A stretch of DNA of 64,000 bases from Paludibacteraceae bacterium (GTDB lineage: Bacteria > Bacteroidota > Bacteroidia > Bacteroidales > Paludibacteraceae): assembly GCA_017527495.1 (NCBI GenBank), contig JAFXPY010000025.1, forward strand, positions 1-64,000. Reading direction: 5' to 3'. Positions 39,718-42,634 of the stretch are shown here, piece by piece (positions within the stretch are counted from its first letter, which is position 1; the number at the start of each line of letters is the position of its first letter). The notes below the pieces were generated by a model. That model did no database searches. It saw only the letters and a list, made by a program, of their open reading frames with translations, and was not told where the DNA came from. A program made the translations under genes and the position numbers.

Positions 39718-41070
39718 ATGGCAAAGAACAGCAACCTCGGATTGGCAAAAGCCGCTAAAAATGACGAGTTCTACACCCAGTATGCGGACATTCAGAAAGA
39801 AGTAAACGCATACATTGAATACAACCCCGATGTCTTTCGGGGCAAGACAATCTTGTTGCCTTGCGACGATCCGGAATGGAGCAACTTTACCAAGTTTTTT
39901 GCACAAAACTTTGAGTTCTTCGGTCTGAAGAAACTCATTTCCACTTCATACGCCATCGAAAGCAAGAAATACAAGACCGACTGGCAGCCGACACTCTTTG
40001 AAACAGAGAATCCTCTATACAATGCCGATAAAAGCCGCATCAAAGGCAAAATCTTTACACTTACGCACGATACCAATCAGAGCGGTCGTATTGACATCAA
40101 CGACCTCGAATGGCAATACCTTGAAGGCGACGGCGATTTCCGCAGTGCCGAAGTAACCGCTCTCCGAGACGAAGCGGATATAATTATCACCAACCCGCCG
40201 TTCTCGCTCTTTCGGGAGTTTCTTGCGTGGATACTTGAGGGTACTCCAAAGCAATTCCTTATCATCGGCAATATGAACGCTATTACCTATAAAGAGGTCT
40301 TTCCTCTGATAAAAGAGAATAAAATATGGTTGGGAAAAGGATTTACCAGAAGTTGTGCTCATTTCTTCAGCCCTTTTGAAAGTGATAGTGAATATCTTGA
40401 ACTTGATAGATTCAATAAATTAGGGATTGCTATACCCAAAGGTTTGTATGTTACAAGAGTTGCAGGTATTTGTTGGTTCACCAACCTTGACCACGGTCGC
40501 CGCCACCAACCTTTGCAACTTATGACTATGGCTGACAATATCAAATTCAGCAGACATAAAGAGATAAAAGGTATAGGTTACCAACACTACGACAACTACG
40601 ATGCTATCGAAGTGCCCTATACCGATGCCATACCAAGCGACTATGTGGAGTGTCTTGGAGTACCGATTTCATTCTTGGATAAATACAGCCCCGAGCAGTT
40701 TACTATTATCGGTGCAACAGAAAGTGAAGGCAAAGGCTTTTCAAACGGATTATGGAATCCCGAAAGCGGGATCGCTCAAGCCCTTATTAACGGAGAGCGC
40801 GTATATAAGCGCATCTTCATAAAAGCCAATAGGGGGGGGCTGATAATCAGTGAGTTACGCGAGTATATAATAAATACATACGGCTATAGTCCGGAAGAAG
40901 TTACCATCATCAGCGGCATTATGGGCGTTCCTATTTCGTTCCTTGACAAGTATTGCCCCGAGCAGTTTGAGATAGTGGGGAATGAGTATGATCAAAATAT
41001 TTCTAAAGGTAGGGCATATGCCGATGGTAAAAGAATGTATAGTAGAATATTTATCCGCAAGCGGCAGTAG
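39718..41070 (+). CDS. EcoRI-type adenine-specific DNA methyltransferase with duplicated C-terminal module
   Basis: 450 residues. The N terminus (NDEFYTQYADIQKEVNAYIE), the cofactor-region ILLPCDDPEWSNF and the catalytic IITNPPFSLFREF (NPPF at 159-162) are typical of the M.EcoRI-like adenine methyltransferase family. The C terminus has two copies of a module: GVPISFLDKYSPEQFTIIG to RIFIKANR (314-371) and GVPISFLDKYCPEQFEIVG to RIFIRKRQ (403-450). They are joined through eight consecutive Gs at 40832-40839. Removing or adding one G stops the protein at 374 or 378 residues, right after module 1. It is the probable modification partner of the HNH nuclease at 42643. Normally they might be adjacent; here a transposase gene separates them. 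Confidence 0.88.
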   Translation: MAKNSNLGLAKAAKNDEFYTQYADIQKEVNAYIEYNPDVFRGKTILLPCDDPEWSNFTKFFAQNFEFFGLKKLISTSYAIESKKYKTDWQPTLFETENPLYNADKSRIKGKIFTLTHDTNQSGRIDINDLEWQYLEGDGDFRSAEVTALRDEADIIITNPPFSLFREFLAWILEGTPKQFLIIGNMNAITYKEVFPLIKENKIWLGKGFTRSCAHFFSPFESDSEYLELDRFNKLGIAIPKGLYVTRVAGICWFTNLDHGRRHQPLQLMTMADNIKFSRHKEIKGIGYQHYDNYDAIEVPYTDAIPSDYVECLGVPISFLDKYSPEQFTIIGATESEGKGFSNGLWNPESGIAQALINGERVYKRIFIKANRGGLIISELREYIINTYGYSPEEVTIISGIMGVPISFLDKYCPEQFEIVGNEYDQNISKGRAYADGKRMYSRIFIRKRQ

Positions 41071-41187: not shown

Positions 41188-42321
41188 ATGTTCACATGGA
41201 AGCGGCATAAAGATATTTTCAAAGGAGAGGGAATTTATCACCTCACTTTTGTTGTCCATAACCGTGTGCCTATATTGGGGACATTGGCGGGAGATGCTTC
41301 CGCTGCGCGGGTAGAACTCTCACCTATCGGATATGATATTTCGCAGAACATACAGCAACTGCCATCATTCTTTCCCGCCGTCAAGGTATGCGCCAAACTG
41401 CTGATGCCCGACCATATACATGTGGTGCTGTGGGTGCAAAAAGAGCACCCCTATTCAATCAAAGAAGTGGGACGCAGCATGCGCCAAGCGTGGCATAAGA
41501 TTATCCTTGCGCATACCCAAGAGCAGGGGGCTGGCGTTTCGATGAATCCGCTGGCTCTCGTTTCTATAAACCCGCAGATTAAATCTGCGGAGGACAATAA
41601 AAACGAGAAAAAAGAGAATGCGGGGGACAATAAAAACGAGAACACTCCGCATCTGCCTTATCGCTTTGAGCCACCGTATATCCGCACTTTGGTTGCGAAG
41701 GGGCAACTGAACCGCATGATTGCTTATATCCACGACAACCCGCGCCGTGCGATGTTGCACAGACTGAACCCCGATTTGTTCCGTTTGCGCAGAGAACTGC
41801 AAGTGGAAGGCCTGACCTTCACCGCCTTGGGTAATCTTTTCTTACTTGACTATCCACAGCGGCAGGCTATTGAGTGTTCGCGCACGGCTCCGGCAGAGCG
41901 GATTGCTGCACAGCAGGCATCTGCCATACAAGCGGCAGAGAAAGGGACGGTTAGTTACAGCGGCGCGGTCAGTGCCGGTGAGAAGCAGATTATACGCGCC
42001 ATCCACGAGGCAGGATGGCCGGTTGTAGTAGTCCTGAACGATGGTTTTCCCGCAGCCGGTTCTGAACATGAGCGTTTCTATAAGCCCGGAGGTGTGTATT
42101 TTGAGGCTTGCGCCGCAGGACGACTTCTGCTGTTAGAGCCTACGGCAGCCACATTGGAGAGCGAGCTGGTCGTAGCCCTGACAGAGCAGGCACTGCGCGA
42201 CAAGGCGGAAGCCAAACATCAAGACTATGCACCCCTGCCACACGCCTCGAAGAGGTGGCGAATGGTGGCAAACAACTGCATTGCGGGGATATTGGCGGAA
42301 GGAGCAAGAGGGCGGCAATAA
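41188..42321 (+). CDS. REP-associated tyrosine transposase (RAYT, Y1/IS200-like) with C-terminal extension
   Basis: 377 residues. The Y1 domain (1-215) has GIYHLTFVVHNRVPIL, the paired histidines in MPDHIHVVLWV (H76, H78) and the catalytic tyrosine in MIAYIHDNPRRAM (Y180). A low-complexity stretch at about 119-153 (SAEDNKNEKKENAGDNKNEN) is encoded by a REP copy lying inside the gene. A further 150 residues follow, with AGEKQIIRAIHEAGWPVVVV and GVYFEACAAGRLLLLEP, reminiscent of the nucleotide-binding tail of some Bacteroidetes RAYTs. The stop codon lies in the loop of a REP hairpin. It appears to have moved in between a methyltransferase and a nuclease gene. Base composition is more GC-rich than the flanks. 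Confidence 0.88.
   Translation: MFTWKRHKDIFKGEGIYHLTFVVHNRVPILGTLAGDASAARVELSPIGYDISQNIQQLPSFFPAVKVCAKLLMPDHIHVVLWVQKEHPYSIKEVGRSMRQAWHKIILAHTQEQGAGVSMNPLALVSINPQIKSAEDNKNEKKENAGDNKNENTPHLPYRFEPPYIRTLVAKGQLNRMIAYIHDNPRRAMLHRLNPDLFRLRRELQVEGLTFTALGNLFLLDYPQRQAIECSRTAPAERIAAQQASAIQAAEKGTVSYSGAVSAGEKQIIRAIHEAGWPVVVVLNDGFPAAGSEHERFYKPGGVYFEACAAGRLLLLEPTAATLESELVVALTEQALRDKAEAKHQDYAPLPHASKRWRMVANNCIAGILAEGARGRQ
41554..41650 (+). repeat. REP-like hairpin inside the RAYT coding sequence
   Basis: CCGCAGAT (41572-41579), loop TAA, ATCTGCGG (41583-41590), then a tail ending AAACGAGAA at 41609. A second tail copy follows (GACAATAAAAACGAGAA, ending 41642). Just before the hairpin, CTCGTTTCTAT is the inverse of the hairpin-1 tail, so the unit is a longer imperfect palindrome. 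The reading frame is kept through it. Confidence 0.85.
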
Positions 42322-42347
42322 AATTGCCGCAAGAATAATAACGAGAA
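42312..42347 (+). repeat. REP-like hairpin spanning the RAYT stop codon
   Basis: GCGGCAAT (42312-42319), loop AAA, ATTGCCGC (42323-42330), then AAGAATAATAACGAGAA. The TAA stop at 42319-42321 falls at the loop. The tail leads straight into the tandem array. Confidence 0.88.
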
Positions 42348-42634
42348 TTAAGAAAAAAAATAGCGAAAATAAGAATAATAACGAGAATTAAGAAAAAAAA
42401 ATAGCGAAAATAAGAATAATAACGAGAAATAAGAAAAAAATAGCGAAAAAGAAGAATAATAACGAGAATTAAGAAAAAAAAATAGCGAAAATAAGAATAA
42501 TAACGAGAAATAAGAAAAAAATAGCGAAAAAGAAGAATAACGAGAATTAAGAAAAAAATAGCGAAAATAAGAAGAATAACGAGAATTAAGAAAAAAAATA
42601 GTGAAAAAGAAGAATAACGAGAAATAAAAAATAA
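42331..42634 (+). repeat. Tandem array of 38-41 bp units, seven full plus one partial
   Basis: Unit starts are 42331, 42371, 42412, 42452, 42493, 42533, 42572 and 42610. Each has the form AAGAATAATAACGAGAA, then TTAAGAAAAAAAATAGCGA and a short AAAAT/AAAAG end. Differences are mostly A-run length and loss of one AAT in the last three units. The unit repeats the REP tail (AATAACGAGAA), so it looks like an amplified tail. It ends 8 bp before the nuclease start and replaces any normal promoter there. It is not a CRISPR array: there are no spacers. Confidence 0.92.

Follow-up and report, generated by a model that had tools for sequence, protein, structure and literature searches.

A G8 tract between two C-terminal modules of an EcoRI-family DNA methyltransferase as a putative specificity switch

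The two-module gene and its frame outcomes

Why should eight guanines lie between two versions of the same C-terminal module in a DNA methyltransferase gene, and could a change in their number alter what the enzyme recognizes? The gene in question lies in the window (the whole 64,000-nucleotide stretch analyzed here, from a Paludibacteraceae bacterium) at 39718..41070 on the plus strand, and in its G8 state has 450 codons and a stop. Its product is an EcoRI-family (PF13651) adenine-N6 DNA methyltransferase with a conserved NPPF motif (N159-P160-P161-F162), though adenine-N6 methylation of a specific site is inferred from family membership, without a methylome. Module 1 (GVPISFLDKYSPEQF..RIFI, residues 314-370; 40657..40827, plus strand) carries a type A cassette (ATESEGKGFSNGLW..), and module 2 (GVPISFLDKYCPEQF..RIFI, residues 403-448; 40924..41061, plus strand) a type B cassette (NEYDQN..KGRAYADGKRMYSRIFI). 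Between them come the G8 tract (40832..40839, plus strand) and a linker (..NTYGYSPEEVTIISGIM; 40840..40923, plus strand) with a predicted helix at residues 377-388, counterparts of which linker are found in L009, L010, L048, and L121.

The first-pass annotation had placed eight Gs at 40832-40839 between two module copies, and this held exactly. Its product lengths likewise held on re-translation, with 450 residues for G8, 374 for G7 (ending ..RIFIKANRGG before the stop), and 378 for G9 (ending ..RGGADNQ), both short forms stopping just past module 1; these frame outcomes are shown. The only Pfam domain in the 450-residue protein is EcoRI_methylase (PF13651), which scored 425.6 bits against a gathering score of 26.4 and aligned residues 7-370 with profile positions 2-344 of 345, the nuclease being a separate gene. 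Because the profile spans residues 7-370 nearly end to end, the one-module form is a complete EcoRI-family domain and module 2 is an extra. Runs of at least eight G are rare, forming only eight distinct tracts in the 2.47-Mb source genome, mostly outside genes. The junction tract is not there by chance, since two relatives (L009 and L010) have G8 at the same junction. An artefact of a single assembly was also ruled out for this tract, as three species share it.

The module as a cassette and its nuclease partner

A family norm of about 450 residues with two modules, which the first-pass annotation had named as a refutation, was rejected. One module is the norm in the EcoRI family (median ~371 residues), and most of the 191 distinct relatives have ~340-400 residues with one module. 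The tails of these 191 relatives share constant ends (GVPISFLDKYxPEQFEIxG and YxRIxIRK) around a variable core of ~20-75 residues, of which there are dozens of unrelated types. Cassette exchange is shown at the DNA level, where identity between L079 and L097 is 96-100% for most of the catalytic part, only 31-60% over the module, and again 96-100% in the nuclease gene. The same pattern, with the module replaced and the flanks near-identical, is found in the L015/L188 pair. L079 and L097 can be seen as a natural swap experiment, in which the recognition cassette of one and the same operon has been cleanly replaced. As a separate observation, four loci (L076, L109, L120, and L149) have two module motifs ~1.1 kb apart, which fits tandem complete methyltransferase genes and is possibly another way to hold two specificities.

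The predicted structure of the window enzyme (mean pLDDT 86.8, pTM 0.77) gives both modules the same strand-helix-strand..strand order. Residues 11-258 of this model match adenine methyltransferases, among them M.TaqI (Z 8.9), MmeI (Z 8.5), and DrdV (Z 8.6), and the DrdV alignment extends to residue 363, inside module 1. These Z values are, however, middling and do not prove a role for the module. A Foldseek search with the model gave nothing below E 0.001, and a sequence search of solved structures found no relative for this EcoRI-family enzyme, so that the placement of the module at the DNA rests on prediction. Nonetheless, based on its cassette behavior, its C-terminal place in an NPPF methyltransferase, and the predicted structure, we infer that the module is likely the target-recognition part, without data on DNA contact or a methylome.

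Downstream of the methyltransferase gene are an ORF resembling REP-associated transposases (41188..42321, plus strand; below the family cut-off), a 41-bp tandem repeat array of 7.7 copies (42331..42631, plus strand) directly before the nuclease gene, and then the conserved partner itself, a nuclease with DUF262/GmrSD_N and HNH domains (PF03235 and PF01844; 42643..43809, plus strand). A copy-number change in the 41-bp array could possibly affect expression of this nuclease. Extra sequence is present in the methyltransferase-nuclease interval of all three loci with an inter-module G8, and judged by eye only, the interval ORF is tentatively ORF6N-like in L009 and DUF1016-like in L010. Across the family, a DUF262/HNH gene adjoins the methyltransferase in 136 of the 166 relatives with enough sequence, and PADLOC gave a Type II restriction enzyme model as the best match for the window operon. 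The nuclease is up to 97-100% identical between loci with nothing in common in their cassettes, and among pairs with a DUF262 identity of at least 75%, 369 of 526 lack detectable tail similarity. Since a fixed-site nuclease would hardly tolerate cassette exchange while itself staying constant, its specificity likely derives from the methyltransferase or from the methylation mark, an inference for which cleavage is untested. Elsewhere, at G000:C51:85278-85287 (L007, L280), a G10 run lies outside large ORFs, ~230 bp before an ORF starting MIKKQLLSIILLVSSLQLFA, and here promoter-type phase variation is possible.

Repeat tracts at the module across the family

Among the 80 closest relatives in the genome collection, the same two-module plan is found in two Bacteroidales genes, L009 (70% identity) and L010 (62%). 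Both have exactly G8, in frame, at the same inter-module junction as the window gene, and G7 or G9 there leads to a stop a few residues past module 1. The codon phase of the tract is AGG GGG GGG C in the window and GGG GGG GGT in L009 and L010, and the surrounding DNA has diverged among the three genes. The divergence and the differing codon phase indicate that the G run has been maintained though its codons need not be. A module 1 of the ATESEGKGFSNGLW type is common to all three and to many single-module relatives, while module 2 differs in each (NEYD..KGRAY in the window, a TQxGCHD-like core in L009, and MAKRGAGD in L010). Moreover, all three second modules recur in other relatives as their sole module, with 67-79% identity over the cassette between the window and L173, L147, L088, L012, and L078, 85-89% between L010 and both L055 and L033, and 51-55% between L009 and L094, L039, and L103. 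Despite the different cassettes, the module 2 frame is intact and its flanks are conserved in the three species. Among the relatives examined, none with two modules was in an off frame, and a search of 788 Bacteroidota genomes for the linker or the pre-module poly-G revealed no additional two-module gene. Relatives also turned up in 98 plasmid and 12 phage records of the respective collections, but none of them closely matches a tract-bearing gene, and tract lengths are therefore not comparable between isolates.

In 224 non-redundant relatives, we scanned the interval between 840 bp before the module start and 360 bp past it for strong tracts, defined as G or C runs of at least 8, dinucleotides of at least 6 units, or pentamers of at least 4 units. 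All 14 of the strong tracts so found are confined to the zone around the module (-30 to +360 bp), be it before, in, or behind the module (binomial P ~1.5e-7, relatedness ignored), and a Markov null gave an expectation of 3.2 tracts in the whole set against the 14 observed. Recurrence at the module is in this sense shown, though two sets of related genes contribute to the 14 and certain loci were found by similarity to the window gene, so that the tracts are less independent than their number suggests. A dinucleotide-shuffle null with A/T runs was dropped, as chance A9/T9 in AT-rich DNA swamps the signal. For the A9 runs in L102 and L237, we noticed no frame consequence.

The tracts form three groups, namely the inter-module G8, the in-module tracts, and the pre-module poly-G. 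In-module tracts are found in several phyla and comprise (GA)13 in L031, (AG)12 in L048 (Rothia nasimurium), (GAACA)7 in L093, (GA)6 in L121, (AG)10 in L125, (CA)21 in L133, and (GA)8 in L257, with the other frames behind them encoding module ends or whole modules. In L133, for instance, three frames give three ends (PYFRVLVKYKR, EIYRRISIRRKK, and KLYARILIRRKA). An A11 run sits just before the modules in L160 (4906-5560; phage/prophage contig IMGVR_UViG_2858035524_000004), where A10, A11, and A12 lead to three complete modules, of type A, type B, and a third type; a full enzyme results in each state, and the out-of-frame stretches are open for up to ~125 codons. In a blind test, we compared alternative frames with the normal tails of relatives, and tail homology was found in 7 of 7 tract loci (L031, L048, L093, L121, L125, L133, and L160) and in 4 of 193 others. 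These four provide no plain counter-example, as L132 has a tract of its own (A9), L226 is a member of the pre-module poly-G group, and L085 and L134 look spurious. The Enterococcus and Apilactobacillus plasmid copies have no tract, and the methyltransferase gene of Apilactobacillus A1805 is simply broken. In Helicobacter phage Pt11509_1 (L206), a prophage EcoRI-like restriction-modification pair has its methyltransferase annotated in two pieces, with the split falling before the C-terminal part.

The pre-module poly-G is conserved in two Bacteroidota genera in the context ..NW-GG[AV]-MGVPI.., where G9 gives full length (L228, L241, and L247) and G10 truncation (L226 and L229). In L274 (G783:C12, 1450-5511), three tandem EcoRI-family paralogs with one DUF262 nuclease gene among them are 88-92% identical before the tract, and each has its own poly-G and a different cassette; the assembly shows two of them in the on state and the third in the off state. 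In fact, the context AATT-Gn-CAATGGG was seen with n = 8 (off), 9 (on), and 10 (off). Over 395 Bacteroidota genomes, the pattern G7..ATGGGNGTNCCNAT matched the EcoRI methyltransferase family only, and its reversed-pattern control matched nothing. Assemblies caught off frame are shown for L121, L226, L229, and the third gene of L274. The first-pass annotation had held that slippage would toggle between one- and two-module enzymes rather than on and off, and this is supported by the architecture, which two other species share, each with its own second module, and further by repeat tracts that unrelated relatives have at the same module, homologous module ends lying in the alternative frames. A constant G8, which it had named as refuting, is answered only in part; all three inter-module tracts read G8, and length variation (G8/G9/G10) is found only at the homologous pre-module site, between genes and species.

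A putative specificity switch, its rivals, and its precedents

In the mechanism we propose, the C-terminal module (GVPISFLDKYxPEQF, a hypervariable core, and YxRIxIRK) would be an interchangeable target-recognition part, and slipped-strand mispairing at G8 would shift the reading frame. G7 or G9 would yield a normal one-module enzyme reading target A, and G8 would fuse on a second, different module, which may either displace module 1 (new specificity) or add a second specificity. The near-constant DUF262-HNH nuclease would follow the methyltransferase or the methylation state, so that specificity could switch without self-cutting. That a real repeat-mediated switch exists we consider very likely, although this is inferred, as tract variation was not observed at the window. 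For the whole chain, from slippage through module change to a newly methylated site, we lean only modestly in favor, since neither reads nor a methylome are available and population slippage, DNA reading by the module, a changed methylated motif, and the nuclease logic are all inferred. Against the switch stand the lack of reads or isolates covering the window tract, the uniform G8 of the three inter-module tracts, which a fixed Gly-rich linker would also show, and the absence of an experimental structure in the EcoRI methylase family that proves module-DNA contact. Eight Gs also represent the short end of hypermutable tracts. A bolder reading, which we find a little too far-reaching to favor, is that of a widespread mobile RM-like system (EcoRI-family methyltransferase with DUF262-HNH) whose cassettes are chosen by reading frame. 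Depending on the tract, the enzyme would carry none, one, two, or one out of three of them, and a single constant nuclease would follow its current specificity.

A fixed two-module enzyme, bispecific or altered, in which G8 is a mere Gly-Gly linker without meaningful switching, would account for all three inter-module tracts being G8 and in frame with module 2 intact. Yet four glycine codons are available, and the G run has nonetheless stayed unbroken, in either of two codon phases, in three genes whose proteins are 62-70% identical; moreover, the homologous pre-module poly-G varies between 8, 9, and 10, and other repeat types at the same module encode alternative frames. We regard this reading as unlikely. 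Slippage during transcription or translation would instead have every cell make the two protein forms, with no switch in the genome. Homopolymers, especially A-runs, are classic slippery sites, and one such as the A11 of L160 would give mixed forms. However, (GA)n, (CA)21, and (GAACA)7 serve the same role in relatives, which is typical of DNA slippage, and assemblies are locked off frame, making this a very unlikely alternative. Equally improbable in our view is that module 2 is an accidental, blocking fusion, with G8 the off state and the one-module form the on state. The one-module form does have the complete family domain and the family length, but the frame and flanks of module 2 are kept in three species though the cassette differs each time, and in Helicobacter pylori an added TRD-like domain changes specificity rather than abolishing it (PMC3936762).

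The specificity switch that we prefer has precedents, and the design, called new in the first-pass annotation, is so only in part. In the H. pylori Type IIG enzymes HP1353-HP1354 and JHP1272, a frameshift in a homopolymer appends a small C-terminal domain that resembles part of the enzyme's own recognition domain, whereby specificity shifts from CRTTRA to CRTCNA and from GGWTAA to GGWCNA, the change being clean for HP1353-HP1354 and mixed for JHP1272 (PMC3936762). As in HP1353-HP1354, the window tract precedes an extra module homologous to the enzyme's own. However, the H. pylori proteins are Type IIG restriction-modification enzymes, each a long single chain, that have an on/off tract as well, whereas the window has a short stand-alone EcoRI-family methyltransferase and a separate DUF262-HNH nuclease, and among its relatives there are several kinds of repeat and as many as three modules encoded in different frames. 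In NgoAV of Neisseria gonorrhoeae, a poly-G lies at the boundary of a truncated or fused HsdS, and deletion of one G fuses the parts and changes GCAN8TGC to GCAN7STCA (PMC9577141). NgoAV belongs to Type I, though, and its specificity resides in a separate subunit (hsdS1/hsdS2), while the window methyltransferase has its own putative recognition module; the Pfam match of the latter is to a methyltransferase and not to Methylase_S, with no separate HsdS subunit. As in the EcoRI methyltransferase family (PF13651), the catalytic domain and module 1 span the whole profile, but typical members have one module and no tract, and the partner here is DUF262-HNH rather than an EcoRI-type nuclease. With GmrSD, BrxU, and SspE, the partner shares DUF262 (GmrSD_N) and an HNH motif (PMC12707154). 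Unlike these, it is in an operon with an EcoRI-family methyltransferase, and sensing of modification or cleavage dependent on it is hypothetical.

In the open-access literature searched (without subscription journals or REBASE), we found no such switch described for EcoRI-family methyltransferases and no cassettes stored in different reading frames, and 'EcoRI methyltransferase' and 'phase variable' co-occurred only where the enzyme serves as a reagent. The principle that a homopolymer adds a recognition-like domain and changes specificity is already known, then, but the EcoRI-family version and the frame-stored cassettes are new to that literature. If the proposed switch is true, a common methyltransferase family borne on plasmids, phages, and chromosomes would possess a general slippage device for switching DNA recognition, one distinct from the classical Type I, III, and IIG cases, and present in phyla with little-studied phasevarions. 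How a nuclease copes with a changed methyltransferase target would become testable, and the short (~25-80 residues) exchangeable recognition cassettes would make up a natural library for learning and designing DNA-methylation specificity.
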